Origin: Stigmatella erecta
Lineage (GTDB): Bacteria > Myxococcota > Myxococcia > Myxococcales > Myxococcaceae
Direction of reading: 5' to 3'
Length of the DNA stretch: 64,000 bases
Assembly: GCF_900111745.1 (NCBI RefSeq)
Contig: NZ_FOIJ01000015.1
Location: forward strand, 62,001-126,000
The position numbers and the translations under genes were made by a program. The notes below the pieces were generated by a model, which saw only the letters and a program-made list of their open reading frames with translations, was not told the origin of the DNA and searched no databases. Below, one piece after another: positions 37,125-60,471 of the stretch; the stretch's first letter is position 1; every line of letters begins with the position of its first letter.

Positions 37125-37142
37125 GGAGGGTAAATACCCTCC
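37125..37142 (+). promoter_or_regulatory. 18-bp palindrome just before the metal-efflux operon
   Basis: GGAGGGTAAATACCCTCC has 8-base arms GGAGGGTA and TACCCTCC around AA, ending two bases before the GTG at 37145. The centre TAAATA could be part of a -10 element, and the first arm could double as a ribosome site. A metal-responsive repressor bound here would block both steps. No regulator gene is adjacent. Confidence 0.5.
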
Positions 37143-37144
37143 CC

Positions 37145-37474: not shown

Positions 37475-37593
37475 GCGTGGCGTTCGTCTAACGGCTTCCA
37501 GGGCCTCGTGGCCCGGGCAGGCCGTGCGTCCGTTGCTCCCTCTCTGCCGCGCGTCCGCTGCCCTTGCCGGCCGCCTCGCGCCGTGGGCCGCTC

Positions 37594-40049: not shown

Positions 40050-40060
40050 AGGCCCGCGCC

Positions 40061-43000
40061 ATGTTCGATCAACTCATCCGGCTTTCGATCCGGAACCGCT
40101 TCATCGTCCTGCTGCTGTCCTCGGCCGTCATCGTCTTTGGCCTCCGGGCCCTGAGCCAGCTGCCCATCGACGCGGTGCCCGACGTCACCAACGTGCAGGT
40201 GCAGGTGCTCACCTCCGCGCCGGGGCTCGGCCCCGTGGAGGTGGAGCGGTTCATCACCGTGCCCGTCGAGACGGCCATGGGCGGCCTGCCCCACACGGAG
40301 GAGATCCGCTCCGTCTCCAAGTTCGGCCTGTCCGCCGTCACCCTCGTCTTCGAGGACGGCACGGACATCTACTTCGCCCGCCAGCTCGTGAGCGAGCGGC
40401 TCCAGGAGGCCCGGGAGAACATCCCCGAGGGCTATGGCATCCCGGAGATGGGCCCCACGGCCTCGGGGCTCGGCGAAATCTACCAGTTCGAGGTCCGGGG
40501 CCCCGGCAAGAGCCCCATGGAGCTGCGGGAGATCCTCGACTGGCAGCTCATCCCCCGGCTGCGCGCGGTGCCAGGCGTGGTGGAGGTGAACGCCTTCGGC
40601 GGCGAGCTGAAGACCTATGAAGTCCAGCTCGAGCCCTCGCGCCTGACGGCCTATGGCCTGTCGCTCCAGCAGGTGTTCGACGCCCTGGAGCGCAACAACG
40701 CCAACGCGGGCGGCGCCTACATCGCCCGGGGGCCCGAGCAGGTGCTCATCCGGGGCGAGGGCCTGGTGGAGACGCTGGAGGACATTGGCCACATCGTCGT
40801 CGCCACCTCATCCCGGGGCGTGCCCGTGTACGTGCGGGACATCGCCGAGGTGAAGTACGCCCCGCTCGTGCGCCAGGGGGCCGTCACGCGGGATGGACGC
40901 GGCGAGGCGGTGACGGGCATCGTGATGATGCGCCTCGGGGAGAACTCCCGCACCGTCGTCAACCACGTGAAGGAGGCCGTGGAGCGCATCCGCCCCACCC
41001 TGCCGCCGGGCGTGACGATCGACACCTTCTATGACCGGACGGAGCTGGTGCGGCAGACGCTCCAGACGGTGGCCACGAACCTGCTGGAGGGCGGGCTGCT
41101 CGTCGTCGTGGTGCTCTTCCTCATGCTGCGCAACCTGCGCGCGGGGCTGCTCGTGGCGAGCATCATCCCCCTGTGCATGCTGGCCGCCTTCATCGGCATG
41201 CGGGCCCTCGGCATCTCCGGCAACCTCATGTCCCTGGGGGCCATCGACTTCGGCCTCATCGTGGATGGCGCGCTCATCATCGTGGAGAACGCGGTGCGCC
41301 ACATCGCCACGGAGAACCACCGGCTCGGCCGCGCGCTCACCCGCGCGGAGCGCGACGAGGTGGTCTGCCGCGCGGCGGTGGAGATCCGCGGCGCGGCGGC
41401 CTTCGGCGAAATCATCATCGGCATCGTCTACCTCCCGGTCCTCACGCTCTCGGGCATCGAGGGGAAGATGTTCGTGCCCATGGCCACCACCGTCCTGTGT
41501 GCCCTGGGCGCCGCGTTCGTCTTCTCGCTCACCCTCGTCCCGGCGCTCGCCTCGCTCGTGCTGCCGCTCCGGGTGACGGAGAAGGAGAGCCCCCTCGTCA
41601 CCGGCGCCCGGAAGCTCTACGCGCCCGCCCTGCGCGCGTGCATGGCGCACCGCCGGGCGGTGGTGGCGGGCGCCGTGGGCGTGCTCGGGGTCAGCCTGGC
41701 GCTCGTGCCGTTCCTGGGGGCGGAGTTCATGCCCCGGCTGGACGAGGGGGCCCTGGCGCTCCAGGCCTGGCGCGTGCCCTCCGTGTCCCTGGAGGAGTCC
41801 CTGCGGCAGACCACCCTCATCGAGAAGGTGCTCAAGCGCTTCCCCGAGGTGCGCACCGTGGTCTCCAAGACGGGCCGCGCGGAGATCGCCACCGACCCCA
41901 TGGGCGTGGAGATCAGCGACATCTTCGTGATGCTCAAGCCCCGGGGGGAGTGGACCACGGCCCGGGACCGGGAGGGGCTCATCGCCACCTTCGACGCGGC
42001 CCTCAAGAAGGAGGTGCCCGGCAGCCTCTTCTCCTACTCCCAGCCCATCGAGCTGCGGGTGAGCGAGCTCATCTCCGGGGTGCGCTCGGACGTGGCGCTC
42101 AAGCTGTACGGCGAGGACCTGGAGGTCCTCAAGCGCACGGGGGACAAGCTCGCGGCGGTGCTCGCCCGCGTGCCCGGCGCCGCGGACGTGAAGGCCGAGC
42201 AGGTCGCCGGCCTGCCCGTGGCGCGCGTCCAGGTGGACCGGCAGGCCATCTCCCGGTACGGCATCAACGCCCGGGACGTGCTCGATGCCATCGAGACGCT
42301 GGGCGGCAAGCAGGTGGGCGTGGTGCTGGAGGGCCAGAAGCGCTTCGCCCTCCAGGTGCGCTTCGCCCCCAGCGCCCGCCAGCACGTGGAGCAGCTGGGC
42401 AACATCCAGGTCACCAGCCCCTCCGGGCAGTTCGTGCCCCTGTCCCAGATTGCCCGCATCGAGGTGGACGAGGGGCCCGCCCAGGTGAGCCGCGAGAACC
42501 TCCAGCGGCGCCTCACCCTGGAGGCCAACGTGCGGGGCCGCGACATTCAGGGCTTCGTCAGCACCGCGCAGGAGGCCATCGCGCGGGAGGTGCCGCTGCC
42601 CCCGGGCTACTGGCTGGAGTGGGGCGGGCAGTTCGAGAACCTCCAGACGGCCAGCGCCCGGCTCGCCGTGGTGGTGCCCTTCACCCTGCTGCTCATCTTC
42701 GTGCTGCTCTACCTCACCTTCCAGGCGGCGCGGCCCGCGCTCCTCATCTACCTCAACATCCCCTTCGCGGTGACGGGAGGCCTGCTGGCGCTGGCGGTGC
42801 GCGGCCTGCCCCTGTCCATCTCCGCGGCGGTGGGCTTCATCGCCCTGTTCGGGGTGGCGGTGCTCAACGGCCTGGTGCTGGTGTCCGCCATCCGCCGGCT
42901 GCGCCAGGAGGGACAGCCCGCCGCGGCGGCGGCGCACGAGGCGGCCCACCTCCGGCTGCGGCCCGTGCTCACCACCGCGCTCGTGGCCAGCCTGGGCTTC

Positions 43001-43159
43001 CTGCCCATGGCCCTGTCCACCGGCGCCGGCGCCGAGGTGCAGAAGCCCCTGGCCACCGTCGTCATCGGCGGCCTGCTCAGCTCCACGCTGCTCACCCTGC
43101 TGGTGCTGCCCACCGTCTATGCGTGGTTCGACCCGGACCGCGCGCAGCCCCCCACATGA
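40061..43159 (+). CDS. czcA: Heavy-metal RND efflux pump (CzcA family)
   Basis: A 1032-aa HME-RND protein with 12 predicted membrane helices and two large periplasmic loops. The helix-4 proton relay of heavy-metal pumps is intact: AIDFGLIVDGALIIVEN with D396, D402 and E409. Other family motifs include VPDVTNVQVQV near the N-terminus and a C-terminal helix block (AVGFIALFGVAVLNGLV). It exports divalent metals such as Co, Zn, Cd or Ni by proton antiport, or Cu/Ag in the CusA branch. No CusA Met triad is obvious, so the Czc branch is favoured. The gap to czcB is 11 bp. Confidence 0.94.
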   Translation: MFDQLIRLSIRNRFIVLLLSSAVIVFGLRALSQLPIDAVPDVTNVQVQVLTSAPGLGPVEVERFITVPVETAMGGLPHTEEIRSVSKFGLSAVTLVFEDGTDIYFARQLVSERLQEARENIPEGYGIPEMGPTASGLGEIYQFEVRGPGKSPMELREILDWQLIPRLRAVPGVVEVNAFGGELKTYEVQLEPSRLTAYGLSLQQVFDALERNNANAGGAYIARGPEQVLIRGEGLVETLEDIGHIVVATSSRGVPVYVRDIAEVKYAPLVRQGAVTRDGRGEAVTGIVMMRLGENSRTVVNHVKEAVERIRPTLPPGVTIDTFYDRTELVRQTLQTVATNLLEGGLLVVVVLFLMLRNLRAGLLVASIIPLCMLAAFIGMRALGISGNLMSLGAIDFGLIVDGALIIVENAVRHIATENHRLGRALTRAERDEVVCRAAVEIRGAAAFGEIIIGIVYLPVLTLSGIEGKMFVPMATTVLCALGAAFVFSLTLVPALASLVLPLRVTEKESPLVTGARKLYAPALRACMAHRRAVVAGAVGVLGVSLALVPFLGAEFMPRLDEGALALQAWRVPSVSLEESLRQTTLIEKVLKRFPEVRTVVSKTGRAEIATDPMGVEISDIFVMLKPRGEWTTARDREGLIATFDAALKKEVPGSLFSYSQPIELRVSELISGVRSDVALKLYGEDLEVLKRTGDKLAAVLARVPGAADVKAEQVAGLPVARVQVDRQAISRYGINARDVLDAIETLGGKQVGVVLEGQKRFALQVRFAPSARQHVEQLGNIQVTSPSGQFVPLSQIARIEVDEGPAQVSRENLQRRLTLEANVRGRDIQGFVSTAQEAIAREVPLPPGYWLEWGGQFENLQTASARLAVVVPFTLLLIFVLLYLTFQAARPALLIYLNIPFAVTGGLLALAVRGLPLSISAAVGFIALFGVAVLNGLVLVSAIRRLRQEGQPAAAAAHEAAHLRLRPVLTTALVASLGFLPMALSTGAGAEVQKPLATVVIGGLLSSTLLTLLVLPTVYAWFDPDRAQPPT

Positions 43160-43234
43160 TGCGCCATGTCAGAGGCCCCGGGGAGCCCACGGAGTTCCCC
43201 CAACGTTGCCGCGCCAGGGTAGAAGCGGCGCCCC

Positions 43235-45514
43235 ATGGACGACGATTTCCGCAAAGCAGCCCTCGACTACCACCGCCTGCCCCGGCCGGGAAAGCTGGCC
43301 ATCGAGCCCACCAAGCGCATGGCCACCCAGCGCGACCTGGGCCTTGCCTACTCTCCCGGAGTCGCCGCCGCGTGTGAGGCCATCGTCGCCGACCCCGAGG
43401 CCGCCCGGGACTTGACCGCGCGCGGCAACCTGGTGGCGGTCATCACCAACGGCACGGCCGTGCTGGGGCTGGGCAACATCGGCGCCCTGGCGGGCAAGCC
43501 GGTCATGGAGGGCAAGGCGGTCCTCTTCAAGAAGTTCGCCGGCATCGACGTGTTCGACCTGGAGGTCAACGAGAGCGAGCCCTCGCGCTTCGTGGACGTG
43601 GTCGCCTCGCTGGAGCCCACCTTCGGCGGCATCAACCTGGAGGACATCAAGGCCCCCGAGTGCTTCATCATCGAGCGCGCCCTGCGCGAGCGGATGAAGA
43701 TTCCCGTCTTCCACGACGACCAGCACGGCACCGCCATCGTCTGCGCGGCGGCCATCCGCAACGGGCTCGTGCTCCAGGGCAAGCGGCTGGAGGAGATCAA
43801 ACTCGTCACCTCGGGCGCGGGCGCCGCGGCGCTGGCGTGCGTGGATCTGCTCGTGGAGATGGGGCTGCCCATCGAGAACGTGACGCTCACCGACATCAAG
43901 GGCGTGGTCCACGCGGACCGGGGCGATCCGATGGCGCCCAACATGGCCCGCTACGCCCGGCGCACCGAGGCGCGCACCCTGCCGGACGTGCTCGGCGGGG
44001 CCGACGTGTTCCTGGGGCTCTCCGCGCCGCGCGTGCTCAAGGCCGAGTGGCTGCCGCTGCTCGCCCCCAAGCCGCTCATCCTCGCGCTCGCCAACCCCGA
44101 GCCGGAGATCCGCCCCGACGTGGTCCGCGCCGCGCGGCCGGATGCCATCGTCGCCTCGGGGCGGACGGACTTCGCCAACCAGGTCAACAACGTGCTGTGC
44201 TTCCCCTTCGTGTTCCGGGGCGCGCTGGACGTGGGCGCCACGGAGATCAACGAGGCCATGAAGCTGGCGGCCGCCGAGGCCATCGCCGAGCTGGCGCGGG
44301 CGGAGGCCAGCGAGGTGGTGGCCGCGGCCTACGGCGGGGCGGCCCCCGTGTTCGGCCCCCAGTACATCATCCCCAAGCCGTTCGATCCGCGGCTCATCCT
44401 GAAGATCGCCCCCGCGGTGGCCAAGGCCGCCATGGACTCGGGGGTGGCGCGCCGGCCCATCGCGGACTTCGACGCCTACCACCGGGAGCTGGAGCTGTTC
44501 GTCTACCGCTCGGGCCAGCTCATGCGTCCGGTGTTCGAGGTGGCCCGCCGGGCGCCGGGGCGCGTGGCCTACGCCGAGGGCGAGGACGAGCGCGTGCTGC
44601 GCGCGGTGCAGACCGTGGTGGATGACCGCATCGCCCAGCCGGTGCTCATTGGCCGGCGCGCCATCATCGAGGCCAAGGTGCGGGAGCTGGGCCTGCGGCT
44701 CGACGTGGGCCGCCAGGTGCGCGTGCTGGACCCGAACGAGGACGCGGCGGTGTTCGACCCGCTGGTCCACCGCTACCAGCACCTCGTCGGCCGGCGCGGC
44801 GTGCCCCCCGAGGCGGCGGCCCGGCGCGTGGCGCGCAGGCCCACGGTGACCGCGGCCATGCTGCTGGAGGCGGGCGTGGTCGACGCGGCGCTGTGCGGCG
44901 GCAATGGCGACTGGGGCCGGCAGATGAGCGAGGTGCTGCCCATCATCTCCAAGAGCGAGGGCGTCAGCCGCATCTACGCGCTCTCCTGCCTCATCCTCCC
45001 CAAGGGCGCGCTGTTCTTCTGCGACACCCACGTCAACCTGGACCCCACCGCCGAGCAGGTGGCGGAGATGACGCTCATGGCCGCGGACGCCGTGCGCCAC
45101 TTCGGGCTCGTGCCGAAGGCCGCGCTGCTGTCCCACTCCAGCTTCGGCGCCAGCAACTCGCAGAGCGCGCGCAAGATGCGCCAGGCCCTGAAGCTCATCC
45201 GCGCCCGGGCGCCCGGGCTGGAGCTCGACGGCGAGATGCACGCCGACGCGGCGCTCAGCGAGGCGCTGCGCGGCCGCCTCGTCTCGGACAGCCCCCTGAC
45301 GGGCACGGCCAACCTGCTGGTCATGCCCACCCTGGACGCGGCCAACATCGGCCTGACGCTGCTCTCGGCCGCCACCGAGGCGCTCCTGGTGGGCCCCATG
45401 CTGCTGGGCATGTCCAAGCCGCTCCACGTGCTCGTGCCCCGCGTCACCGCGCGCGGCATCGTCAACATGACCGCCCTGGCCGTGGCGCAGATGCAGACCC
45501 AGGCCAAGGGGTAA
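43235..45514 (+). CDS. maeB: NADP-dependent malic enzyme with phosphotransacetylase-like domain (MaeB)
   Basis: A 759-aa protein. The malic domain (about 1-165; [27 protein letters not shown]) and the NAD(P)-binding domain (to about 420; [16 protein letters not shown]) carry out oxidative decarboxylation of malate to pyruvate. The C-terminal 330 residues resemble phosphate acetyltransferase ([32 protein letters not shown]) and act as a regulatory acetyl-CoA-sensing domain in this family. Full length matches E. coli MaeB. It makes NADPH for anabolic use, possibly including the lipid cluster beside it, though it is probably housekeeping. Confidence 0.95.
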
Positions 45515-45529
45515 ATCAGTCCACCTACA

Positions 45530-45557
45530 TTGATTATTTCTACAAATATCGTATTCA
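45530..45557 (+). promoter_or_regulatory. Candidate promoter of the diiron-enzyme/cupin pair
   Basis: An AT-rich island after maeB contains TTGATT at 45530-45535 and TATTCA at 45552-45557, 16 bases apart, about 50 bases before the ATG at 45606. Such AT-rich DNA is rare in this window and recurs at the other starts of the cluster. Confidence 0.4.
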
Positions 45558-45605
45558 AGGGAATGTCCCCCTTTCTGGCTTACCCCGGCCAGCCGAGAGG
45601 CGAAC

Positions 45606-46403
45606 ATGCACCCAGGATTAAGCCAGCTGGTCGATTCCAATCTCTCGGCCGAGGAGTTCGTCGTCGCGCTCCAGGGCTTCGCGGCCCGGTCACGCGCGGT
45701 GAACCACCCTCTGCTTCAAGCGTTCGCCCAGCGCGAATTCACCCGGCCCGAAGCGGCGCTGAAGGACTTCTTCGGCCAGTACTTCTTCTACAGCTACCGC
45801 TTCACCCAGTACCTCACCTCGGTCATCTCCCGGCTGGACTCGCCGCAGCACCGGGCCCAGCTCGCCGGCAACCTGGCGGAGGAGACGGGGCACCTGGATC
45901 CGGAGCACGCGGCGCTGCTGCGCGGTGCCGGCATCAACCCGGCGGACGCAAGCTTTCCCCACCCGCTGCTGTTCCGGCGGTTCCTGGAGGCCATCGGGCT
46001 CGATGTGACGCAGCTGATGGGCCGCGAGCCCGACGTGGCGACGGCCGCCTGGGTGGAGACCTTCCAGGAGGTCTGCCGGAGCCCGGACGCGGCGCAGGGC
46101 GTGGGCGCGCTGGGCATCGCCACCGAGGCGATCGTCCGCTTCATGTACGCGAGCCTGCTCACCGCCATCCAGCAGACCTGGCCCCAGATGTCCCTCCGGG
46201 ACCGGGTCTTCTTCGATCTTCACGCGGCGGTGGATGACGAGCACGCCGAGGTGCTGCGGGGCATCGCGATGAACCTGGCGCAGACTCCTCGCGGACGCAT
46301 GAGCCTGGCGATGGGCACGCTCCGGGCGCTGGATGCGCGCGCGAACTTCTTTGATCACATGATGGACCGGCTCCGGCGGCTCGACGCGGCCGCCCAGGGC
46401 TGA
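45606..46403 (+). CDS. Haem-oxygenase-like diiron enzyme (iron-containing redox enzyme family)
   Basis: A 265-aa all-helical protein of the TenA/PqqC/HDO superfamily. The metal-binding pattern of haem-oxygenase-like diiron oxidases is visible: EETGHLDPEH (E, H), EAIVRFMYASLL, and the C-terminal DLHAAVDDEHAEVL with the H-x4-D-x2-H arrangement. Family members such as UndA, BesC and SznF use O2 to fragment, desaturate or N-oxygenate amino or fatty acids. A role in the neighbouring lipid cluster is likely but inferred from location. The cupin gene follows after 26 bp. Confidence 0.8.
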   Translation: MHPGLSQLVDSNLSAEEFVVALQGFAARSRAVNHPLLQAFAQREFTRPEAALKDFFGQYFFYSYRFTQYLTSVISRLDSPQHRAQLAGNLAEETGHLDPEHAALLRGAGINPADASFPHPLLFRRFLEAIGLDVTQLMGREPDVATAAWVETFQEVCRSPDAAQGVGALGIATEAIVRFMYASLLTAIQQTWPQMSLRDRVFFDLHAAVDDEHAEVLRGIAMNLAQTPRGRMSLAMGTLRALDARANFFDHMMDRLRRLDAAAQG

Positions 46404-46429
46404 GACTGCACTCGGTGAGGACTCAAGAC

Positions 46430-46915
46430 ATGGCGGAAGCCAAGAACCTAGGGAACAGCGCAGGCTCCGGGACGTTCACGGACGTGGCGCACAACCGCAA
46501 CTCGCTGGAGGTCGTCCCCTCCCGCCAGCCCGACGCGGCCTGCCTGCACCGAGGCGTCGTGGGCGCCGCCCAGGCCAAGGCCTTCTCCGCGCAGCGGGGG
46601 CACCCGGTGTACCCCGTGAAGCTGCCGAGCAAGGCGGTCAGCATGAGCATTGGCGAGCTGGCGCCCGGGGAGCGGACCTCGAACCACCGCCATGGCTACG
46701 AAGCCCTGATGTACGTCATCCGCGGCAAGGGCTATTCGATCGTCGAGGGCCAGCGCTTCGAGTGGCAGGAAGGCGACGCCGTCTACACGCCGCCCTGGTG
46801 CTGGCACCAGCACGTCGCGGAGGAGGGCCACGCGGTGCAGTACATCACCTCCACCAACATGCCGCTGCTCTCCGGCATGGGGCAGACGGTCATCCGCGAA
46901 GAAGAGGCGCCCTAG
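46430..46915 (+). CDS. Cupin-domain protein
   Basis: A 161-aa single-domain cupin starting at the ATG preceded by TGAGGA. Cupin motif 1 (HRHGYEALMYVIRGKG) supplies two His and Glu, and motif 2 (YTPPWCWHQH) supplies the last His, so a metal site is expected. Cupins of this size act as dioxygenases, isomerases or binding proteins. Next to the diiron enzyme it may tailor the same product; the substrate is unknown. Confidence 0.85.
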   Translation: MAEAKNLGNSAGSGTFTDVAHNRNSLEVVPSRQPDAACLHRGVVGAAQAKAFSAQRGHPVYPVKLPSKAVSMSIGELAPGERTSNHRHGYEALMYVIRGKGYSIVEGQRFEWQEGDAVYTPPWCWHQHVAEEGHAVQYITSTNMPLLSGMGQTVIREEEAP

Positions 46916-46931
46916 GGCGCGCCCGGCCCCC

Positions 46932-46964
46932 GGGCTCCGCGGCCAGGTCCTGGCCGGAGAGCCC
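46932..46964. terminator. Bidirectional hairpin between cupin and oxoamine synthase genes
   Basis: GGGCTC and CGGCCAGG pair with CCTGGCCG and GAGCCC, forming 14 pairs with a 2x2 internal loop and a single T at the tip. It lies 16 bases after the cupin stop and 14 before the stop of the convergent gene. A T-run is lacking, as is common in GC-rich genomes. Confidence 0.6.
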
Positions 46965-46978
46965 GCGGGCCCCGGGTG

Positions 46979-49249
46979 TTACTCGTAGACGTCCGGGCGG
47001 TACGCGGCCAGGTCGATGCGGGGATCCAGATAGTCGATGAAGTGCTGCAGCTTGCCCTGGCGGAAGGTGCCGACCTGCAGGAAGGGATCCGAGTAGGCGA
47101 TGCCCGTGGGGATGGCCGTGCTGCGGAACCCTCCGAGCGAGAAGACCTGGTCTCCCCGGCAGATGAGCGCATCGATGTAGAGCTCGTGGAAGTCCATGAT
47201 GGCCGCCAGGTCCTGCCAGAACTGCAGCATGGCATCGATGCCCCGCCAGACGCCCGCGAAGGGCAGCTGCTTCGGGCCATTGATTTCCCACACCACGTCC
47301 GGCGCGCAGCGGACGATGAACTTCTCGATGTCCGCCTTGCGCACCCAGGCCTCGTAGAGATCCCTCATGAGCTGGCCGTTCTCGGTGGCCCGGACGGCAT
47401 CGTGCTGGATGAGCAGGGTGGCGGCCTCGGGGCCAGGAGCCCCCTCGCCGCGCCAGGCGGCGCCGTCCAGGACCTCTTCCACGCGGACGATCTTGCCCCC
47501 CTTCATCGTGAGCAGGTGCAGGTACCACTCCTCGCCCACCGGGAGCGTGCGCCGCCCGCTGATCGTCAGGTCATCGCCATAGGCCATGACGTAGTCCACG
47601 GTCCACTTCTCCGAGGGCCGGACCTTGCGCTGGTGCGCCCAGTAGTCCTGGAAGGCGCTCCCGCCGCGCCACCGCCCCATGGCCGCCTGGCCCTCGAGGC
47701 CGGGCACCTCCACCACGAGCGACTCGCTGAGCACCGACGTGTCGATGCCGTTCCCCGAGCCAAACTGCTCGTAGAACTTGCGCGCGGCCACCGAGTTCTG
47801 GTCCTCCTTCTCGGGATCGAAGTGCTTCTCGCGCTCGCCCGTCAGCGGATCCACCAGCTTCGCCCGGCGCCGGAAGACCTTGCCCGGATCCGTGATGCGC
47901 CCCGAGACCATCAGGTCCGCCCGGTCCCGGCTCGGCAGCGAGGACAGCGTCTCGCCAATCACGCTCGTGCGCGCGGGCAGCTTGGCGATCTCCTCCGCCA
48001 TCGCCTGCACCGCCTGGCGGATCTGCTCCGGGGTGTGGGTGGAGCTGACGAAGAAGCGCAGGCGCGCCTTGTCCTGCTCCACGGCCGGGCTGATGACCGG
48101 GTCCACGTTGATGCCCCGGCGGTGGAGCGCATCGGACAGCCGCAGCGCGTGGAAGGAACTGCCGGTGACGACCGGGAGCACGGGCGTGCCCATCGCCAGG
48201 TGGGTGTCGAGCCCCGCGGCGCGCGCCTCCTCGAGGAAGAGCTTGGCGTTGCGCTGCAGCTGGGCGACACGCTCGGGCTCGGCCGCCATGATGGAGAGCG
48301 CGGACAGGGCCGCGGCGGCATTGGGAGGCGTCAGGCCCACGCTGAAGATGAACCCGGGGGTGGTGTACTTCAGGTAGCGGATGAGCTCCGAGCTGCCCGC
48401 GATGTAGCCCCCGCAGCTGGCCAGGGACTTCGAGAGCGTCCCCATCCAGATGTCCACATCGGACGAGGGGATGCCGAAGTGCTCCTGGATGCCACGGCCG
48501 GTGGCGCCCAGCACGCCCATGGAGTGGGCCTCATCCACCATCAGGAAGGCGTTGAACTCGCGCTTGAGCTCGATGATCTTGGGCAGGTCCGGGATGTCCC
48601 CGTCCATGCTGAACACGCCCTCGGTGATGATGACCGCGCGCTCGGCGTCGGCCCGGTGCTCCTTCAGCAGCTCCCGGAGGTGCCCCAGGTCATTGTGGCG
48701 GTAGGGCCGGGCGCGGGCGCCCGACAGCGTCACGCCCTGCACGATGCTGTTGTGGGCCAGGGCGTCGTAAAGAATCAAATCCCTGCGGTTGAACAGGTGC
48801 CCGATGACGGTCACGTTCGTGGCGTGGCCACTCACGAGCACCAGCGCGGCCTCCGTGCCGAGCCACGACGCCAGCGCCGCTTCCAGCTCGCGGTGGAGCG
48901 TCTTCTCGCCAGAGGCGATGCGGCTGGCGGACGGGGACGTGCCGAAGCGGTCGATGGCGTCCTTTGCCGCGGCGGAGACGCGCGGGTCCCCCGAGAGGCC
49001 CAGATAGTTGTACGTGGAGAAGTTCAACAGCTCGCGCCCACCGATCTGGGTGGTATCGCGGGTGACGCCCTCCTGTGCCTTGAAGAAGGGATGCACCTCG
49101 GTCCAGCGGGAGACGACCGACAGGCGCGAGCGGAGTGCCTTGAACGTGCCGTGCTCTTCGAGCTTGACCGGGGTCAGGCTACCGCCCGAGCGGAGCAGCC
49201 GCTCGAGCAGGGCGCGCTTCTCCTGAGGAGACAACTGGTCGATGTTCAT
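46979..49249 (-). CDS. Alpha-oxoamine synthase fused to two NTF2/SnoaL-like domains
   Basis: A 756-aa protein. Residues 50-425 are a PLP-dependent alpha-oxoamine synthase: NFSTYNYLGLSGDPRV, SGHATN (H142 stacks on PLP), VDEAHS (D239) and the Schiff-base Lys274 in TLSKSLASCGGY. The family condenses an acyl thioester with an amino acid with loss of CO2, giving an alpha-aminoketone. An NTF2-like domain at about 485-600 (KWTVDYVMAYGDDLTISG) and a SnoaL-like one at about 620-745 (DLYEAWVRKADIEKFI) follow; such folds act as cyclases, dehydratases or isomerases. The length is nearly twice that of free-standing synthases. The start overlaps the ACP stop (ATGA), so acyl-ACP is the probable donor. It is the last gene of the FAAL-ACAD-ACP-AOS operon. 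Confidence 0.9.
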   Translation of the reverse strand: MNIDQLSPQEKRALLERLLRSGGSLTPVKLEEHGTFKALRSRLSVVSRWTEVHPFFKAQEGVTRDTTQIGGRELLNFSTYNYLGLSGDPRVSAAAKDAIDRFGTSPSASRIASGEKTLHRELEAALASWLGTEAALVLVSGHATNVTVIGHLFNRRDLILYDALAHNSIVQGVTLSGARARPYRHNDLGHLRELLKEHRADAERAVIITEGVFSMDGDIPDLPKIIELKREFNAFLMVDEAHSMGVLGATGRGIQEHFGIPSSDVDIWMGTLSKSLASCGGYIAGSSELIRYLKYTTPGFIFSVGLTPPNAAAALSALSIMAAEPERVAQLQRNAKLFLEEARAAGLDTHLAMGTPVLPVVTGSSFHALRLSDALHRRGINVDPVISPAVEQDKARLRFFVSSTHTPEQIRQAVQAMAEEIAKLPARTSVIGETLSSLPSRDRADLMVSGRITDPGKVFRRRAKLVDPLTGEREKHFDPEKEDQNSVAARKFYEQFGSGNGIDTSVLSESLVVEVPGLEGQAAMGRWRGGSAFQDYWAHQRKVRPSEKWTVDYVMAYGDDLTISGRRTLPVGEEWYLHLLTMKGGKIVRVEEVLDGAAWRGEGAPGPEAATLLIQHDAVRATENGQLMRDLYEAWVRKADIEKFIVRCAPDVVWEINGPKQLPFAGVWRGIDAMLQFWQDLAAIMDFHELYIDALICRGDQVFSLGGFRSTAIPTGIAYSDPFLQVGTFRQGKLQHFIDYLDPRIDLAAYRPDVYE

Positions 49250-49569
49250 GACTTGGTTCCCGTCATCTTGCGGAGGAGCGCTTCCACTTCGGCATCCGAC
49301 ATGCTGTCGGTGGCGCTGGGGGGCGGGGCCTGCTGCTCCCCGGTCAGGGCACGCGAGAGCGCCCGGAGGGTGCGGTAGTCCCAGAGCACGGTGGGCTCCA
49401 CGCGGCGCTTGAGCAGGGTCTCGAGCTCTCCGGCCAGGGCCACCGCTTCCATGGAGTCGATCCCCAGCTCATCGAGCGGCAGGTTGACGTCGATGGCGTC
49501 GGGACTCAGACGCGTCCGGGTGGCCACCATGGCCTTCAGCCATTGTTCGAGTTCGTCGCTGGTTATCAT
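49246..49569 (-). CDS. Acyl carrier protein
   Basis: A 107-aa carrier protein with LDELGIDSMEAVAL; Ser39 is the phosphopantetheine site. The carrier fold occupies about 1-80 and is followed by a 25-residue acidic tail (ATDSMSDAEVEALLRKM), which may dock a partner. It lies 5 bp after the acyl-CoA dehydrogenase gene and overlaps the synthase gene, so it probably holds the acyl chain made by the FAAL and passes it to the synthase. Confidence 0.93.
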   Translation of the reverse strand: MITSDELEQWLKAMVATRTRLSPDAIDVNLPLDELGIDSMEAVALAGELETLLKRRVEPTVLWDYRTLRALSRALTGEQQAPPPSATDSMSDAEVEALLRKMTGTKS

Positions 49570-49574
49570 GTCTC

Positions 49575-51176
49575 TCATCCTGCGAGTGCTGTCTCCGAGG
49601 CTGGCCCGGTGGACACATCCGTCACCGAGAGCAGGTGTCCGCCCTCGACACGCGCGGCCAACAGGTCGAAAATCTCCCGGCACGCCGTTTCAGGCAAGGC
49701 CTCGGGCTCCATCAGGAACTGGCCCGCCAGGGCGGGCACGCCCGCCCGGCACAGGGCCAGGCCGGGATTGAACCGCTCGAAGTGGAAGCAGCAGGCCGCC
49801 GCGTGCAGCAGCCCATACCGCCGCGCGGTCTCCAGCCGCGCCGGCCCGCGCAAGGCCTCGCTCCCGCCCTGCCGCAGCGCGCTCCAGTGGGGGAGCAGCC
49901 CGGGGGGAAGCTCCGCGGTGACGTCATCCACCCCGCGGGCGGTCAGGCCGAGCGACGCCGGGGCAAACGCCGGCACCGGCTCCTCCAGGCTGAAGCGCGT
50001 GCGCAGCAGGTCTCCGCTTCCCGCGTTGGCCGTGAACACCTGGGGCAGCTCCGCGGCCAGGGCATGCAGGCAGACAGGCTCGCTGCCATCGATGAGCCCC
50101 ACGGCCGCATGGTCCCGCGCCATCTTCTGGAAAATCGCCGCGGGGCCTTCCCGCATGAAGGCGCGGGCGCCCAGCACCGTCGTGGCGGACCGGATCGCCT
50201 GCTCCACCAGCGCGGGCGCGATGGCCTTGGCCAGGGGCGACGAGAGGCTCGCCTGGCCGGGGGCCCCATGCAGCGCGCGCACCCCGGACAGCAGGAGGAT
50301 CTCCGCGGCCAGGAGGCGCAGCCACGCCCCCACGAGCAACCGGCGCACGGCGGGCAGGCTCGCGGCGCTCGCCCGGTAGAGCTCGCGCTCCAGGGCGAAC
50401 CGGGTGGCCACCCGCAAGGCCCTGTCGCCCGTGCCCAGCCCCAGCCCCGCCATGAGCGGGCGGGTGAGCTGGAAAATCTTGAGGGTCAGCTCCAGCCCCT
50501 GGCCCTCCTCGCCCACGGGGCTCGCCGCCGCGCGGGCAAACCGCAGGCCGCTCAGGTCCGAGGCGCGCAGCCCCACCGTGCGGACCTTGGGCAGCCGGAC
50601 CACCGTGGGTTGATCCAGCTCCACCAGGAACCAGCTCAACGCGCGCGGCCCGGGGGCCGGACGGGTGCGCGCCAGCACGAAGGCGAACGCGGCATGGCTG
50701 GCCCGGCCAATCGGCCACTTCTCGCCCGTCACCTCCCAGCCCTCCGGCCTGGACAGGGCCAGCGTCTCGGTGGCCAGCAGGTCCGCGCCGTGGTTGGCCT
50801 CGGAGGCGGCGAAGCACGGCGCGGCGGTGCCCTGCAGGAGGGCCCGGGCCCGCTCCCGCTGGCCGGGGCTCCCCACCATCCAGGCGAGCCAGAGCCAGCA
50901 CAGCATCCCCTGGCTCAACGCGACGGACGGATCCCTCCGCGCCAGGGTGAGCCCCACCGCGAGCGCCCCCTCGAAGGAGACGAACTGCCCCCCTTCCGAG
51001 GCGGGGACGAGCAGGTCCGGCACGCCGTGAGCGCGCAGGGCCGTCAGGGCCTCCGCGGGGAAGGCCTCGCCCTCATCCCGCGCGAGCGTGGCGTCCTGGC
51101 CGAGAGGACCCTCGCCAGAAACGGGGCCCAGCCGTTGCTCCAGCTGGGCGAGCGTTGCCGCGTAGAGGCCGTTCAT
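49575..51176 (-). CDS. Acyl-CoA dehydrogenase family flavoprotein
   Basis: A 533-aa protein (start at the ATG at 51176, which overlaps the FAAL stop). The acyl-CoA dehydrogenase fold is seen from about 30 to 390: RAHGVPDLLVPASEGG, ARRDPSVALSQGM, ASEANHGADLLA and GWEVTGEKWPIG. A C-terminal extension of about 150 residues is atypical. Members placed next to an acyl-AMP ligase and ACP in other pathways introduce an alpha,beta double bond into ACP-bound fatty acids. The catalytic base could not be assigned by eye. Confidence 0.85.
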   Translation of the reverse strand: MNGLYAATLAQLEQRLGPVSGEGPLGQDATLARDEGEAFPAEALTALRAHGVPDLLVPASEGGQFVSFEGALAVGLTLARRDPSVALSQGMLCWLWLAWMVGSPGQRERARALLQGTAAPCFAASEANHGADLLATETLALSRPEGWEVTGEKWPIGRASHAAFAFVLARTRPAPGPRALSWFLVELDQPTVVRLPKVRTVGLRASDLSGLRFARAAASPVGEEGQGLELTLKIFQLTRPLMAGLGLGTGDRALRVATRFALERELYRASAASLPAVRRLLVGAWLRLLAAEILLLSGVRALHGAPGQASLSSPLAKAIAPALVEQAIRSATTVLGARAFMREGPAAIFQKMARDHAAVGLIDGSEPVCLHALAAELPQVFTANAGSGDLLRTRFSLEEPVPAFAPASLGLTARGVDDVTAELPPGLLPHWSALRQGGSEALRGPARLETARRYGLLHAAACCFHFERFNPGLALCRAGVPALAGQFLMEPEALPETACREIFDLLAARVEGGHLLSVTDVSTGPASETALAG

Positions 51177-52873
51177 GGTGCTGCCTGAGACAGCTCTTCC
51201 TCGGCGGCGGCCGGATTGAGCCTGCGCTCCATCCACTGGCGCCGGCATTCGCGGCGGCGCACCTTGCCGCTCGAGGTCCTGGGAACCCCACCCGGCCGCA
51301 GCAGGCACACCTCGAAGGGGACCACCCCATGGGCGCGCGTCACGGCGGCAGAGACCGCGTTCACGATGGGCTCGGGCGGGCTGTTGCGGGAGGTGCGCTT
51401 GAGCTCCGCCACGATGACGAGCCGCTCCTCGCCCTCCTCCTCCACGGAGAACGCCGCGAGGGCGCCCGCGCTCAGCGCGGCGTGGGCCGCGGACGCCGCG
51501 TCCTCGATGTCCTGGGCGTGCAGCGTCTTGCCCCGGATCTTCACGATGTCCTTGATGCGCCCGACGATGTACAGCGAGCCGTCATCCATGAAGCCGAGGT
51601 CGCCGGTGCGGATGAAGGTCCCCTCATGGCCCTGCACCTCGGCCTTGAACGTCTCCTGGGTGGCCTGCGCGTCGCCGTAGTAGCCATGCGTGGCGCTGGG
51701 ACCCGCGATGAGGATTTCCCCCACCATCGCATCGGGCACGGGCCGCAGCTGCTCGTCCACGATGACCACCTGCTGCCCCGGAACAGGCCGGCCACAGGCG
51801 AACAGCATCCGCGTCCGCTCCCCGCCGGGCTCCACCCGGCCCTCCTCCAGCGCGGAAGCATCCACCGACCGGAACACCAGCGGCGCATCCGTGCGCCGCC
51901 CCGTGGTGATGAGCGTGGACTCGGCCAGGCCATAGCAGGGCGAGAGGATGTTGGGGTCCAGCCCCACGGGCACGAAGCGCGGCGCGAAGGCCTGCCACGT
52001 CGAGGGACGCACGGGCTCGGCGCCGCAGATGAGGATGTTCCAGCTGGACAGGTCGAGCCGGTCGCGATCCTCGTCGCTGATGCGCTCGGCGCACAGGCGC
52101 AGCGCGAAGTCGGGGGCGGGGCTGATGGTCCCCCGGTAGCGGGTGACCGCCTCCAGCCAGCGCGCGGGGCGTTGCAGGAAGTGGTGGGGCGACATCAGCA
52201 CCGACGGCACCTGCGAGAGGATGGGGTGGATGATGCAGCCGATGAGGCCCATGTCATGGTAGGGCGGCAGCCAGCCCACCACGCGGCAAGGATCCTCGCG
52301 ACGCACCCAGACGATGGACTCGCTGTTGTGGACGAGGTTGCCGTGGCTCACCATGACGCCCCGGGGATTGCCCGTCGAGCCCGAGGTGAACTGGAGGAAG
52401 GCCAGGTCGCTGGGCTTCGGGGTAAAGGGCCGCCAGAGCTCCGCATCCGCCGCGAGGACCTGCTCGATGGCCAGCCAGCTCATCCCACTGGCCTGGCGCA
52501 GGGGCTCCGGCAGCGTTTTGATCAGATCCCCGTCGGCCAGCGCGAAGCGCGCCGTGACCCGGTGGGAGATGCCGAACAGGCGCTCGAACTCGGCCGCCCG
52601 GCGGGGCACCACGGCGGGCACGGGCAGCGCCCCCGCGTAGAGACAGGCCAGGAAGCCCGCGATGAACTCGAGCCCGGGGCGGATGAGCAGCACCACCCGC
52701 TCACCGGTGGCGCCTGCCTCTTGCAGCGCCGCGGCCCCGGCACGCGCCAGCCGGTCCAGACCGGCCGTGTCCAGCGTGCCTCCCTCCTGCTCGCCATCCA
52801 TCAACCACGTGAACTGCGGACGGCGTGGATCGCGCTCGGCGCTTTGGCGCATCGCATCGACGATGGTGTTCAC
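51173..52873 (-). CDS. Fatty acyl-AMP ligase (FAAL)
   Basis: A 566-aa adenylate-forming enzyme. The ATP loop FTSGSTGNPRGVMVSH, the FAAL-typical GWLPPYHDMGLIG, CYGLAEST, TGDLGFMDDGSLYIVGR and the C-terminal GKVRRRECR are all present. FAALs activate fatty acids as acyl-AMP and pass them to carrier proteins rather than CoA. As first gene of the operon with ACP, it would supply the acyl chain. The leader upstream is AT-rich. Confidence 0.92.
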   Translation of the reverse strand: MNTIVDAMRQSAERDPRRPQFTWLMDGEQEGGTLDTAGLDRLARAGAAALQEAGATGERVVLLIRPGLEFIAGFLACLYAGALPVPAVVPRRAAEFERLFGISHRVTARFALADGDLIKTLPEPLRQASGMSWLAIEQVLAADAELWRPFTPKPSDLAFLQFTSGSTGNPRGVMVSHGNLVHNSESIVWVRREDPCRVVGWLPPYHDMGLIGCIIHPILSQVPSVLMSPHHFLQRPARWLEAVTRYRGTISPAPDFALRLCAERISDEDRDRLDLSSWNILICGAEPVRPSTWQAFAPRFVPVGLDPNILSPCYGLAESTLITTGRRTDAPLVFRSVDASALEEGRVEPGGERTRMLFACGRPVPGQQVVIVDEQLRPVPDAMVGEILIAGPSATHGYYGDAQATQETFKAEVQGHEGTFIRTGDLGFMDDGSLYIVGRIKDIVKIRGKTLHAQDIEDAASAAHAALSAGALAAFSVEEEGEERLVIVAELKRTSRNSPPEPIVNAVSAAVTRAHGVVPFEVCLLRPGGVPRTSSGKVRRRECRRQWMERRLNPAAAEEELSQAAP

Positions 52874-52953
52874 GGATACCCTCGGAACTTGCAGCCTGTA
52901 CGGCTTGTGGGAACCGTTGATTAACTAGCACAACCCGGTTTCAGATTAAAGGC

Positions 52954-52982
52954 TTAACAAAAATATTCCGATAAACTGTAAA
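52954..52982 (-). promoter_or_regulatory. AT-rich promoter region of the FAAL operon
   Basis: The 150-bp gap 52874-53023 is AT-rich in a very GC-rich setting. On the minus strand TTTACA (52982-52977) and TGTTAA (52959-52954) are 17 bases apart; TTTAAT slightly downstream is a better -10 without a good -35. The exact element is uncertain, but a promoter in this gap is likely. Confidence 0.4.
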
Positions 52983-53023
52983 ACCAAGTCGGGTGAGGTG
53001 GGCCCAGGAAGTACCTGGAGGGC

Positions 53024-54604
53024 TCACAGCACGTAGCGCAGATCCAGGAAGAGCCCTTGGTTGGCGCGGTAGTAGCCACCGTAAGAGAACGTCTCCCCGG
53101 CCAGGAGGAGCGCGCCGGCGGTGCAGGAGAGGTGCTCGCGCTTCCAGCGCACCCCGAGCCGGCCACTCACGCCCAAGGGGACGAACCCCACCCCGCCCTG
53201 GCCTTCCAGGGAGAATTCCTCGGTCAGCCCCCAGCGCACGGTGAGCGCCGCCCCCAGGCTGTCGCGCTCGTTCCAGAGCAGCGGCGGGGGCTCGCCATTC
53301 CGGGGGAGGATCCGCCCGTAGGACAGGGCGAAATCCACCACCTGGTCGAAGTCGCGCTGGTACTCGATGCCGGCCAGACCGGTGAGGAAGGGGTGGACGG
53401 CCGTGGAGAGCGCCTGGGTGATGAACACCTTGCGCGACTCGTAGGCCCCCTCGCCGTAGAGGATGAAGGGCCCCGCCTCGCCCACCGCGGAGAAGCCCAC
53501 GTGGTGGCGGCGCTGGTAGCTGACGGAGACCGACTCGGCGAAGCGGTTGAAGGCCAGCGCCCGGGCGGCGGGATCCTCCTGAAGCGCGGGGTCCAACAGG
53601 CCCACGAGCTGCGCCTCATCCACCCGCCAGCGGGGCGTGAAGTCGAAGCCCAGGTGGTAATAGTGGTTGAGCTCCACGCTCCCCAGCCGCCAGGAGAACC
53701 GGAGCCCCGCAGCCGCCTGCGAGAGGCTCGCGCTCACGCCGCGATCCGGAGAGAACAGGGCGCTGCCCTGGGGAGAGTCTCCCGCCTGCCCCAGCACGGC
53801 GCGGTACGCCGCGGGCGCGGCGTCCTGCACCAGCGCCCAGTTGCTTCCGTAGAAGTCGAAGGTGGCCGGCTGGAAGAAGGGAATGGCGATGAGCTGCAGG
53901 GCGCTGGAGCCCATCAAGAGGTCCACCCGCGCGGCGATCACCGGCTTGTACCGGAGCTCCTCGGGGACGAGCAGCGGGTCGCGCAGGTCCTGCGGGTTGA
54001 CGACATCGTTGATGGCCAGGACCTCGTTGCGGCCCCAGGCGATCCGCTGCTGTCCGAGGGTCACGCTCAGCGAACTCCCGGAGAGGCCGAGGTAGAACTC
54101 CTGCAGCCGGGGCTCGAGCTGATAGCGCCAGGAGTCCCCCGCCTCCTGCCCCGCGGGCGGCGTCTGCGGGCGCCAAAGGACGCGGTGGTCGAGCGCGCCC
54201 GAGGCCGCGAACGACCAGCCATCGCCGCGCCGGTGGAGGAAGCGCAGGTAGAGCGTCGAACGCTCCGTCCACCGGTCGTGCGGCGTGCGCAGCCCTGGCG
54301 GCTCACCGCTGGGCGCGCTCCGGGGGAAGCCATAGGTGGGCGCGAGCCGGGCCCAGCCGAGCAGTTCGGTGGATGCCTGGCGCTCGCTGGCGAAGCCCTC
54401 TTCCTCCAGCGCGGACGCGAAGGAGTCCCCGGACGCGTCCGGGGAGGAAGGCGCCTCGGACCCGTCGGGAACGGGGGGCGCCACTTCCCCGGCCTGCGGC
54501 TCCACCTCCTGCGCGGCCCCCCCGCTCCCGGGGACGAGCATCAGGAGGGCCACCAGCCCACCGCTTCGCACCTTCTTCCGCATGGGGCTTCCGGATGACG
54601 GCAT
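53024..54604 (-). CDS. Outer-membrane beta-barrel protein (DUF1302-like)
   Basis: A 526-aa protein with a signal peptide (start at 54604, with GGGAG upstream; ATG at 54583 also possible) and an acidic linker. The rest is an amphipathic beta-strand array ending in aromatic LDLRYVL. The motif LGQQRIAWGRNEVLAIND with VVNPQDLRDP is the hallmark of DUF1302-type porins. Such proteins are regularly encoded beside LolA-like periplasmic proteins and MMPL exporters, as here. It is the distal gene of the paa/exporter operon and probably the outer-membrane exit for the product. Confidence 0.8.
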   Translation of the reverse strand: MPSSGSPMRKKVRSGGLVALLMLVPGSGGAAQEVEPQAGEVAPPVPDGSEAPSSPDASGDSFASALEEEGFASERQASTELLGWARLAPTYGFPRSAPSGEPPGLRTPHDRWTERSTLYLRFLHRRGDGWSFAASGALDHRVLWRPQTPPAGQEAGDSWRYQLEPRLQEFYLGLSGSSLSVTLGQQRIAWGRNEVLAINDVVNPQDLRDPLLVPEELRYKPVIAARVDLLMGSSALQLIAIPFFQPATFDFYGSNWALVQDAAPAAYRAVLGQAGDSPQGSALFSPDRGVSASLSQAAAGLRFSWRLGSVELNHYYHLGFDFTPRWRVDEAQLVGLLDPALQEDPAARALAFNRFAESVSVSYQRRHHVGFSAVGEAGPFILYGEGAYESRKVFITQALSTAVHPFLTGLAGIEYQRDFDQVVDFALSYGRILPRNGEPPPLLWNERDSLGAALTVRWGLTEEFSLEGQGGVGFVPLGVSGRLGVRWKREHLSCTAGALLLAGETFSYGGYYRANQGLFLDLRYVL

Positions 54605-54633
54605 GCGCTGTCTCCCGCGGCGGTGGCCGCTGG

Positions 54634-55440
54634 TTACTCCTGCTCCAGCCGGCGGGAGTCGAAGAGGTTGTCCGGGATGTCCTTGCGCGGGACGACCTGC
54701 TCGAGCACGAGCGTCGTGGCCCGCTGCGCTGAGTGGCTCTCCATGCGCGAGCGGGTGACGAACCACCGTCCCTGGATCTGCTTGCTCTCCTCGACGGTGA
54801 ACGTCTTGGAATGAGCGCCCTTGAGATCGTACATCTGGGACTTGAGGATCATGTGGTTGTCCTTGCGTGCCCACACCTCGAGCCGCGAGTACTGCGCGTC
54901 GCTGGAGGTGGGCTTCACGGTCAAGCGGTTGCACACGGTGTCCCCCAGCTTCTCATCGGGCAGGGCGGTGGCCTCCGCGAACCGGAGCTCGCGCCGGTCC
55001 AGGTCGGCGAACGCGAAGTCGGTGGTCATGAACGAGCCGGCGCGCAGCTTGCCGGAGACGCGCCGGACCCGCTTGAGCTCGGGCAGGTAGATGTAGCGCT
55101 CGTCGTCCGTGTCCCGCTTCTGGATCTGCAGGAACTTGACGCCGTTGAGGTCCGGCGGCGCCAGGAAGCGCACCAGGCTCTTGGTCAGCGTCCCCTCGTA
55201 GTAGCGCGACTGGGCCGAGAAGCGCACCGTGCGGCTCTTCCCGTCCTTCTCGCGGATGGACGCCTGGGCCTTGAGCTCCGCATCGGCGAAGCCCCAGCTG
55301 TCCGACGCGGCGATCTGCGTCAGGACCGCGGCGCCGCTGCCGGTGATGTCGTCCGCGTGCGCCCGCGAGGGCCCCAGGAGCACCGCGGCGCCCATCAGGG
55401 CGAAGGGGAGAAGCCCGAACTTCATGCCGTATCCGCTCAT
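54634..55440 (-). CDS. LolA-like outer-membrane lipoprotein-sorting protein
   Basis: A 268-aa periplasmic protein. The start at 55440 shares one base with the exporter stop (TGATG) and has GGAGG upstream; an internal ATG at 55425 begins the hydrophobic signal (KFGLLPFALMGAAVLL). The mature fold is an open barrel like LolA (RYYEGTLTKSLVRFLAPPDLNG, DERYIYLPELKRVRRV, SRLEVWARKDNHMILKSQMY). This family (PF17131-like) pairs with RND/MMPL exporters and may carry lipids across the periplasm. Confidence 0.85.
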   Translation of the reverse strand: MSGYGMKFGLLPFALMGAAVLLGPSRAHADDITGSGAAVLTQIAASDSWGFADAELKAQASIREKDGKSRTVRFSAQSRYYEGTLTKSLVRFLAPPDLNGVKFLQIQKRDTDDERYIYLPELKRVRRVSGKLRAGSFMTTDFAFADLDRRELRFAEATALPDEKLGDTVCNRLTVKPTSSDAQYSRLEVWARKDNHMILKSQMYDLKGAHSKTFTVEESKQIQGRWFVTRSRMESHSAQRATTLVLEQVVPRKDIPDNLFDSRRLEQE

Positions 55441-57878: not shown

Positions 57879-57911
57879 CCGTGTTCTCCTATCATCGGCG
57901 CGGCCCTCCCC

Positions 57912-58418
57912 TTACAGGGGCTTGAGCTGCTCGAAAAGAGCTTGGCAAGGATTGCACCTGCGGACGGCGCGGCACCGGGTGGAGCCGAACGCGCTGACCA
58001 GGACCGTGTCCTCGCTGCCACAGCGGGTGCAGGGCACGCGGTCCTTCGCCAGCGACTCGAGCCCCCCCAGGGCGCCTTCCTCCGTGACGGCGCCGGGGCC
58101 AATGCTGATGTGCACCGCGCGCAGCGCCTCGCGCCCCTGGGCGCTGATCTGCCCGGGGCTCCAGGGCTTGGCGTGCGACACCTGGACATCCGGCTCGAGG
58201 CCCAGCCTCCGCACGGCCCGTTCGATCTCCAGGGAGATGAGCCGGCTCGCGGGGCAGCCCAGGAAGGTGGGCGAGAACACGACGGTGCACCGCGCGCCCT
58301 CGACGCGCACGTCCCGGACCATGCCCAGCTGCACGATGGAGATGACCGGCATCTCCGGATCATTCACCCCATCGAGCGCGCTCCACACCGCCCCGGTTCC
58401 CCCCTCGGCCGGGCTCAC
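57912..58418 (-). CDS. paaD: PaaD-like iron-sulfur assembly/maturation protein
   Basis: A 168-aa protein from a GTG overlapping the paaC stop. An N-terminal MIP18/DUF59 domain (GVNDPEMPVISIVQLGMVRD, FSPTFLGCPA) and a C-terminal zinc-ribbon (CTRCGSED...RCRAVRRCNPC) give the same layout and length as E. coli PaaD (about 165 aa). In the phenylacetate system PaaD helps mature the oxygenase complex. Confidence 0.92.
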   Translation of the reverse strand: MSPAEGGTGAVWSALDGVNDPEMPVISIVQLGMVRDVRVEGARCTVVFSPTFLGCPASRLISLEIERAVRRLGLEPDVQVSHAKPWSPGQISAQGREALRAVHISIGPGAVTEEGALGGLESLAKDRVPCTRCGSEDTVLVSAFGSTRCRAVRRCNPCQALFEQLKPL

Positions 58419-60424: not shown

Positions 60425-60471
60425 TCTCACCTCTTCACTGTAAATCACTGGAGCAGCCGACTGCGCTCTCC

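Follow-up and report, generated by a model that had tools for sequence, protein, structure and literature searches.

Alpha-aminoketones made by alpha-oxoamine synthases (AOS) readily dimerise, oxidise or close to rings, and once the product is free, its further conversion often falls to spontaneous chemistry or to later enzymes. The locus analysed here raises the question of whether such a product can be taken over by domains carried on the synthase itself. The window, i.e., the whole stretch of DNA that was analysed, comprises 64,000 nucleotides of Stigmatella erecta (NCBI RefSeq assembly GCF_900111745.1, contig NZ_FOIJ01000015.1, positions 62,001 to 126,000), and on its reverse strand, at 46979-49249, a gene encodes a 756-aa protein in which an AOS domain is followed by two NTF2-like domains, here called D1 and D2. 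An earlier note, made from the sequence alone, had described an intact synthase followed by two such domains in one chain, and this was borne out by the open reading frame (ORF), the Pfam domains and the profile comparisons. The combination of AOS and NTF2 pair is, moreover, well supported as a conserved module. We put at about 55% the probability that the four-gene operon ending in this gene makes an aminoketone-derived product, with the NTF2 pair converting the reactive aminoketone on the same chain.

A synthase followed by two NTF2-like domains

The ORF starts with ATG, contains no internal stops, and shows a third-position GC of 0.94 across its length, a pattern typical of a real gene. A near relative, G003, has the same 756-aa chain, 98% identical over residues 1-756, and the ratio of amino-acid to silent substitution rates (dN/dS) between the two genes is 0.13. 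The relative holds the same block of DNA, with about 96% identity across window positions 36141-54579 and 54635-63624; further left, identity is 90-98% in three pieces, down to 32279, where the compared stretch ends, and on the right the similarity stops near 63625. The presence of the same chain in G003 and the coding GC pattern across the ORF leave almost no credence for an assembly or frameshift artefact that joined separate genes.

The AOS core spans residues 51-424 (47978-49099, reverse strand), and the Pfam scan of the whole protein gave an Aminotran_1_2 match over residues 73-416 (1.1e-48). Between the window and G003, this core has 8.5 amino-acid versus 23.5 silent changes, a dN/dS of 0.12. 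Its top matches among solved structures, by sequence, were serine palmitoyltransferases (SPT; 3a2b and 8guh) and BioF/KBL-type enzymes. Lys274, in SKS, and Asp239, in VDEAHS, align with SKS and VDDAHS of 3a2b, and together with His166 and Arg398 they align with both 3a2b and the solved AOS 8s1y, presumably in the roles that the aligned residues have there. His166 falls on the histidine of the SPT motif RDHASI, which we take to have a role in stacking on pyridoxal 5'-phosphate (PLP). The earlier note had named Lys274, Asp239 and His142 for the intact synthase; all three exist at these positions, but the SPT-motif histidine is His166, and His142 belongs to another motif. The aligned Lys and Asp motifs and the predicted fold-type I PLP core assign the protein to the AOS superfamily. 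It reached neither the NCBIfam equivalog cut-off for BioF, the 8-amino-7-oxononanoate synthase (370.8 bits, cut-off 426), nor that of the serine palmitoyltransferase model NF047600 (337.4 bits, its best SPT score, cut-off 640).

These scores bear on a first alternative, in which the protein would serve sphingolipid synthesis as a serine palmitoyltransferase bearing an accessory tail. Among solved structures, serine palmitoyltransferases are indeed nearest in sequence; however, the best SPT score, 337, is set against a 640-bit equivalog cut-off, and the operon carries genes for a fatty acyl-AMP ligase (FAAL), a dehydrogenase and an acyl carrier protein (ACP). Some AOS match was found in 57 of 59 genomes, the window's own and its relatives, and a second AOS in the window genome, at C1:683232, is of a kind found across these relatives and would be the likelier SPT of the genome. 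We regard this alternative as very unlikely.

A linker of about 60 residues separates the AOS core from D1 (residues 486-612; 47414-47794, reverse strand), which is followed directly by D2 (residues 613-756; 46982-47413, reverse strand). In the Pfam scan, Aminotran_1_2 was followed by two stretches matched by SnoaL_2. Scanned alone, D2 passed the SnoaL_2 gathering score of 27 with 39.1 bits (1.2e-9), while D1 spanned positions 2-102 of the 102-position profile at 25.9 bits (1.6e-5), 1.1 bits below that score. A profile built without D1, D2 and their G003 copies recovered D2 at 1.4e-22 and D1 at 6e-5, and the best of 200 shuffled D1 sequences reached 0.23. D1 was also homologous to D2, with a score of 69 against a shuffle mean of 27 and none of 500 shuffles as high. 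The solved NTF2-like proteins 3ebt, 3fgy and 3ec9 match D2, and a profile built from D2 with its relatives picks up many others, including TerC, IdmH, limonene epoxide hydrolase and SnoL, and more weakly StmD and a protein labelled steroid delta-isomerase. Against G003, D2 shows 0 amino-acid and 5 silent changes and D1 shows 4 of each; although these are small numbers, they suggest that D2 is under constraint and D1 less so.

Carrier linkage and recurrence of the module

The AOS gene is the last of an operon in the order FAAL, acyl-dehydrogenase, ACP and AOS-NTF2-NTF2, with an ATGA overlap at each of the three junctions. The ACP gene (49246-49578, reverse strand) encodes 110 aa with a GIDSM motif and a PP-binding match at 2.5e-14, and overlaps its neighbours on both sides. 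The acyl-CoA-dehydrogenase-like protein (533 aa; 49575-51176, reverse strand) was identified by its Pfam match, and its gene overlaps that of the FAAL (51173-52873, reverse strand), whose product has an AMP-binding domain and a DIP2-like C-terminal domain; FAAL models were among its best NCBIfam matches, all below their cut-offs. This context was absent from the earlier note; with a FAAL, a dehydrogenase and an ACP encoded in one operon, the likely substrate is an acyl chain carried on the ACP.

The relatives of the synthase lead in the same direction. A pattern scan of species genomes gave at least 575 confirmed AOS matches, the best 80 of which were kept, and in all of these best 80, the best segment ended at or before query residue 487, before the NTF2 domains proper. 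The architectures among the domain-scanned relatives were FAAL-ACP-AOS (L002), ACP-AOS (L005), and AOS fused to a polyketide synthase (PKS; L108 and L110, the latter with an ACP domain). In locus L161, a FAAL gene lies near a PKS-AOS gene, and at four of five proteobacterial loci (L048, L033, L056 and L059), an AOS-sized ORF of 455-474 aa comes after a presumed PKS, an ORF of roughly 2500-2600 aa. We took physical linkage of the ACP and AOS coding sequences, by fusion or by gene overlap, as the sign of carrier linkage, and found it as the ATGA overlap in the window and as an ACP-AOS fusion in the genome G122, described below. By sequence, the AOS domain thus belongs with the carrier-protein-linked synthases. 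We infer from the architectures of the relatives and from the operon that it accepts acyl-ACP, and the AOS-NTF2-NTF2 protein very probably detaches the acyl chain from its carrier in the form of an alpha-aminoketone.

The size of the chain had been contrasted in the earlier note with ordinary synthases of about 400 aa. Among the relatives, the AOS domain repeatedly forms part of a long multidomain chain, so a length above 400 aa is not unusual, whereas the NTF2 domains are. In a comparison of tail lengths, of which 25 rows of 114 are considered here and from which eight short local matches inside longer chains were left out, 332 aa follow the AOS match in the window and G003, 165 aa in L133 and L134, 134 aa in the other AOS of the window genome (L112), and at most 44 aa in the remaining rows; a Pfam domain was not found in the C-terminal 134 aa of L112. 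An NTF2-like ORF lay beside none of the 80 other AOS loci (1.26 Mb, median 17 kb, some under 4 kb), and none was found in L108-L111, L115-L117 or L161.

As side observations on these sets, planctomycetes account for 52 of the 94 rows of the AOS tree, many with ORFs of about 1150-1250 aa, of which the FAAL-ACP-AOS protein L002 is the one that was domain-scanned; and the window FAAL matches 52 of the 90 loci examined.

A search of 195 genomes of the phylum with the window C-terminus matched 14 of them, with a full match only in the window genome and G003 and weak single-domain matches in the other 12. On this search, the fusion appeared unique to the genus, a view that was overturned when the dehydrogenase was used as the query: it matched 11 of the 195 genomes at E <= 1e-30 and led to loci in G117 and G122. 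These two genomes belong to another genus of the same family, and in them one ORF (726 aa in G122) encodes ACP-AOS-SnoaL_2 (PP-binding 3.1e-12, SnoaL_2 5.7e-16), while the next gene, again with an ATGA overlap, encodes a second NTF2-like protein of 134 aa (SnoaL_2, 41.9 bits). A dehydrogenase gene lies upstream and a cytochrome c gene and an MMPL gene lie downstream. In G122, an AMP-ligase gene is also found upstream, to which the window FAAL gave no match. In G117, the downstream genes include a LolA-like one (3.1e-47) and one weakly matched by DUF1302 (19.2 bits, cut-off 23.2); a second ligase, with a DIP2-type end (26.6 bits, cut-off 27), is encoded there on the opposite strand. Two genera therefore share, with different fusion points, a recurring set of AOS, ACP, dehydrogenase, two NTF2 domains and MMPL/LolA-like genes. 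Both lineages have an NTF2 pair at the synthase, which speaks for a functional unit.

The fusion was thus seen in at least 4 of the 195 genomes (the window's, G003, G117 and G122). This count is a lower bound, as each query finds near relatives only: the window C-terminus misses G117 and G122, and the G122 junction piece, which has some match at E <= 1e-4 in 29 of the 195 genomes, finds G117 and G122 and misses the fusion of the window. With the G122 query at E <= 1e-6, a junction-spanning AOS-NTF2 match was found in none of 294 genomes sampled from the phylum of L002 (two with any match) and in none of 369 sampled from the class of the L016 genome (three with any match). Among plasmids, 11 records had single NTF2 matches to the window C-terminus, and none of the 724 records matching the G122 protein covered 80% of its length. 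Viral contigs gave no NTF2 relatives of the window C-terminus or of a single-domain relative. The architecture was new to the author of the earlier note, and a description of AOS-NTF2-NTF2 was not found in the open-licence PMC papers searched.

Possible roles of the NTF2 pair

In the pathway that we favour, the FAAL would activate a carboxylic acid and load it onto the ACP, and the acyl-ACP may be oxidised by the dehydrogenase. The AOS domain, by homology, would condense the acyl-ACP with an amino acid, with loss of CO2, so that the chain leaves as an alpha-aminoketone. This product would then be converted by the tandem NTF2-like pair in an acid-base step, most likely imine formation, and the outcome could be the condensation of two aminoketones, in the manner of PhzA/B, or an intramolecular ring closure, e.g., by addition of the amine to an alpha,beta-double bond made by the dehydrogenase. 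The product might be exported by the MMPL, LolA-like and DUF1302 proteins. A more specific form of this proposal, which we advance only tentatively, is a "release and close" protein, in which the AOS frees the ACP-bound chain and the NTF2 pair condenses it to a nitrogen ring, giving exported lipid dihydropyrazines when two molecules pair, or a pyrrolidinone when a single molecule closes on the double bond set by the dehydrogenase. The conserved AOS/NTF2-pair module suggests that the step after release is under enzyme control, and it can serve as a search signature for this gene cluster, the product of which was not found in the open-licence PMC papers searched. The idea of the earlier note that the fused domains could process the product at once, for example to a ring, is partly supported: an intact synthase is tied to an NTF2 pair in two genera and in two layouts, as would be expected if the product were processed beside the synthase.

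Several observations weigh against this proposal. D1 lacks two of the three residues that are invariant in the alignment of the D2 family (Asp28 and Pro51 of D2) and has 4 amino-acid versus 4 silent changes, and it may therefore be non-catalytic. A PhzA/B Pfam match was absent from D1 and D2 (up to E 5), from the G122 protein (up to 0.01) and from the second NTF2 gene (up to 0.1). Structure predictions were of low confidence, with a mean predicted local distance difference test (pLDDT) score of 32.4 for the C-terminal 330 residues alone and of 44.6 for D2 with D1 as its only relative; with the latter model, a PDB fold search yielded nothing at E <= 0.001 and placed no NTF2-like protein among the 50 hits listed of 863, a result that we treat as uninformative. 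Of the "two cone-shaped NTF2-like domains" of the earlier note, the NTF2 identity stands by sequence profiles, clearly for D2 and in divergent form for D1, and the cone shape is a prediction from these same profiles. The module is rare as far as seen, as the counts above indicate. A match to paaA, a phenylacetyl-CoA epoxidase-type gene found upstream of the operon in the window, is absent from G117 and G122, and the paa genes are therefore outside the shared core.

The origin of the pairs also belongs among these points. In comparisons among four domains only, the two NTF2 domains of G122 were strongly alike (z 16.4), D1 was closest to D2 (z 9.1), and D2 scored equally well with D1 and with the NTF2 domain fused to the synthase in G122 (z 9.2). 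Because of this equal closeness, both separate duplication and one old pair are possible, and the pairs may have arisen either way. The two AOS-NTF2 lineages were not sisters in the best AOS tree, although a joint clade was not rejected (p-AU 0.166). This topology test used 49 of the 94 tree rows. Repeat gene copies had been left out of the 94-row tree and of the NTF2-profile scan of the loci, and L083-L090 out of the tree. Because two outgroup rows of the 94-row tree are long, we do not use it to place the window protein.

The divergence of D1 is also what would be expected if the NTF2 domains were non-catalytic, and either bound the greasy product or served as a dimer platform holding the synthase, the ACP or the transporter together. 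The tandem pair could be a built-in dimer, as NTF2-like proteins of known structure are described in PMC3955178 as mostly dimers with pockets for hydrophobic ligands, and MMPL and LolA-like genes neighbour the module in both lineages. On the other hand, D2 has 0 amino-acid versus 5 silent changes against G003, small numbers as they are, and the second NTF2 domain of G122 is a separate gene, so joining to the synthase is not needed. We consider this binding or scaffolding role rather unlikely.

In a further alternative, the pair would work ahead of the synthase: as a dehydratase, or as a ketosteroid-isomerase-like double-bond isomerase, it would shape the acyl-ACP together with the dehydrogenase. 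The dehydrogenase gene is kept in both lineages, and limonene epoxide hydrolases and, weakly, the protein labelled steroid delta-isomerase are among the matches of the NTF2 profile. However, the NTF2 domains are fused after the synthase, and four of the six aligned dehydrogenases come from loci without an NTF2-profile match (L132, L135, L136 and L137), so this dehydrogenase subfamily needs no NTF2 neighbour. An action ahead of the synthase consequently appears quite improbable.

As a separate observation on the dehydrogenase (49575-51176), all six aligned subfamily sequences have an invariant Asp (FDGS/IDGS), and about 150 residues extend beyond the Pfam domain. We take the Asp position to be the site of the catalytic-base Glu of medium-chain acyl-CoA dehydrogenase, and for this reason the enzyme's own reaction is uncertain.

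Gene surroundings and known systems

Upstream of the operon, the same strand carries, in order, genes for DUF1302, LolA-like and MMPL proteins, followed by paaD, paaC, paaB and paaA. The DUF1302-family ORF (53024-54934, reverse strand; PF06980 at 3.8e-7, above the cut-off) probably has its true start further in, and the LolA-like outer-membrane lipoprotein-sorting protein (54634-55440, reverse strand, with a probable start; PF17131 at 2.9e-48) is followed by the MMPL-family transporter (55440-57878, reverse strand; PF03176 at 2e-38). The paaABCD genes (57912-60478, reverse strand) are possible cluster members, with PaaA and PaaC over their NCBIfam cut-offs and PaaB and PaaD matched, and 33 bases separate the end of the paaD ORF from the start of the MMPL ORF; paaE was not noticed adjoining them. 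Of 96 family genomes, 2 had a PaaA match (E <= 1e-20), and these are the two with the AOS-NTF2-NTF2 gene. The model TIGR02278 (PaaN-DH, the ring-opening enzyme of PaaZ type) was passed in 2 of 14 control genomes, and no match over its cut-off was found in the window genome. By these two results, the epoxidase looks detached from phenylacetate breakdown, and an oxygenase role within the AOS cluster is possible.

On the other side of the AOS gene, at 45606-46915 (forward strand), a haem-oxygenase-like (CADD-related) gene adjoins a cupin gene, a combination also noted at L128 (1423-2754) and L129 (1195-2763). The two are separate neighbours in G004 and G005 and form one ORF in G105 and G133, an order that presumably recalls the two metal domains of SznF. 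The pair was considered as part of the cluster and rejected, since it is also present in G004 and G005, both without the AOS of the operon, and as one chain in G105 and G133. At 62252-63640 (forward strand), a condensation-domain-like protein (PF00668, 2.3e-7, 30.3 bits, cut-off 30.6) is encoded beside an acyl-CoA-ligase-like gene and divergently from paaA. Just past the right end of the window and outside the block shared with G003, L114 (4060-14328) contains genes with two ketosynthase stretches and an acyltransferase, three ACP stretches and a ketoreductase, and dehydratase domains; we take these genes to resemble synthases of the polyunsaturated-fatty-acid type. Elsewhere, the 12-kb stretch L162 (G118:C9:200000-212000) has five NTF2-like ORFs, which are distributed over the two strands.

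Among known systems, SnoaL/SnoaL_2 cyclases, IdmH, TerC and limonene epoxide hydrolase are assigned by profile to the same superfamily as D2; they are stand-alone enzymes that act on polyketides, terphenyls or epoxides. The planctomycete FAAL-ACP-AOS fusions (e.g., L002, 1156 aa) have the same three activities by domain, and an AOS core 57% identical to that of the window, but they are single chains with no NTF2 domain, and an NTF2-like ORF was not found at the L002 locus. The AOS domains at the end of, or adjacent to, a PKS (L108 and L110 of the relatives, and L048 of Pseudomonas) are 53-58% identical and would likewise release a carrier-bound chain; in contrast, a polyketide synthase supplies the chain, and an NTF2-like ORF was not found at those loci. 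PhzA and PhzB, the nearest chemical precedent, are separate proteins that use a cyclic substrate and involve no AOS, and they differ further in that D1 and D2 gave no PhzA/B Pfam match.

For AOS enzymes such as BioF, PMC9544090 describes the condensation of a thioester with an amino acid and loss of CO2, and it presents BioWF, of biotin synthesis, as a natural ligase-AOS fusion that passes its product through the AOS; unlike the NTF2 pair, the partner in BioWF is a ligase and acts before the AOS. The likeness to the phenazine enzymes lies in duplicated NTF2-like proteins and in an aminoketone condensation that PhzB promotes: phzB arose by duplication of phzA (PMC4392301) and PhzB accelerates the condensation of two AOCHC molecules (PMC6722869). 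PMC5934903 calls the intermediates of the phenazine pathway unstable, regards AOCHC as probably toxic and proposes a co-localisation of the enzymes. The resemblance, which extends to an aminoketone, duplicated NTF2 domains and close coupling, is one of chemistry and layout, and, if the "release and close" proposal were true, the module would represent PhzA/B-type chemistry built into chain release from a carrier protein.

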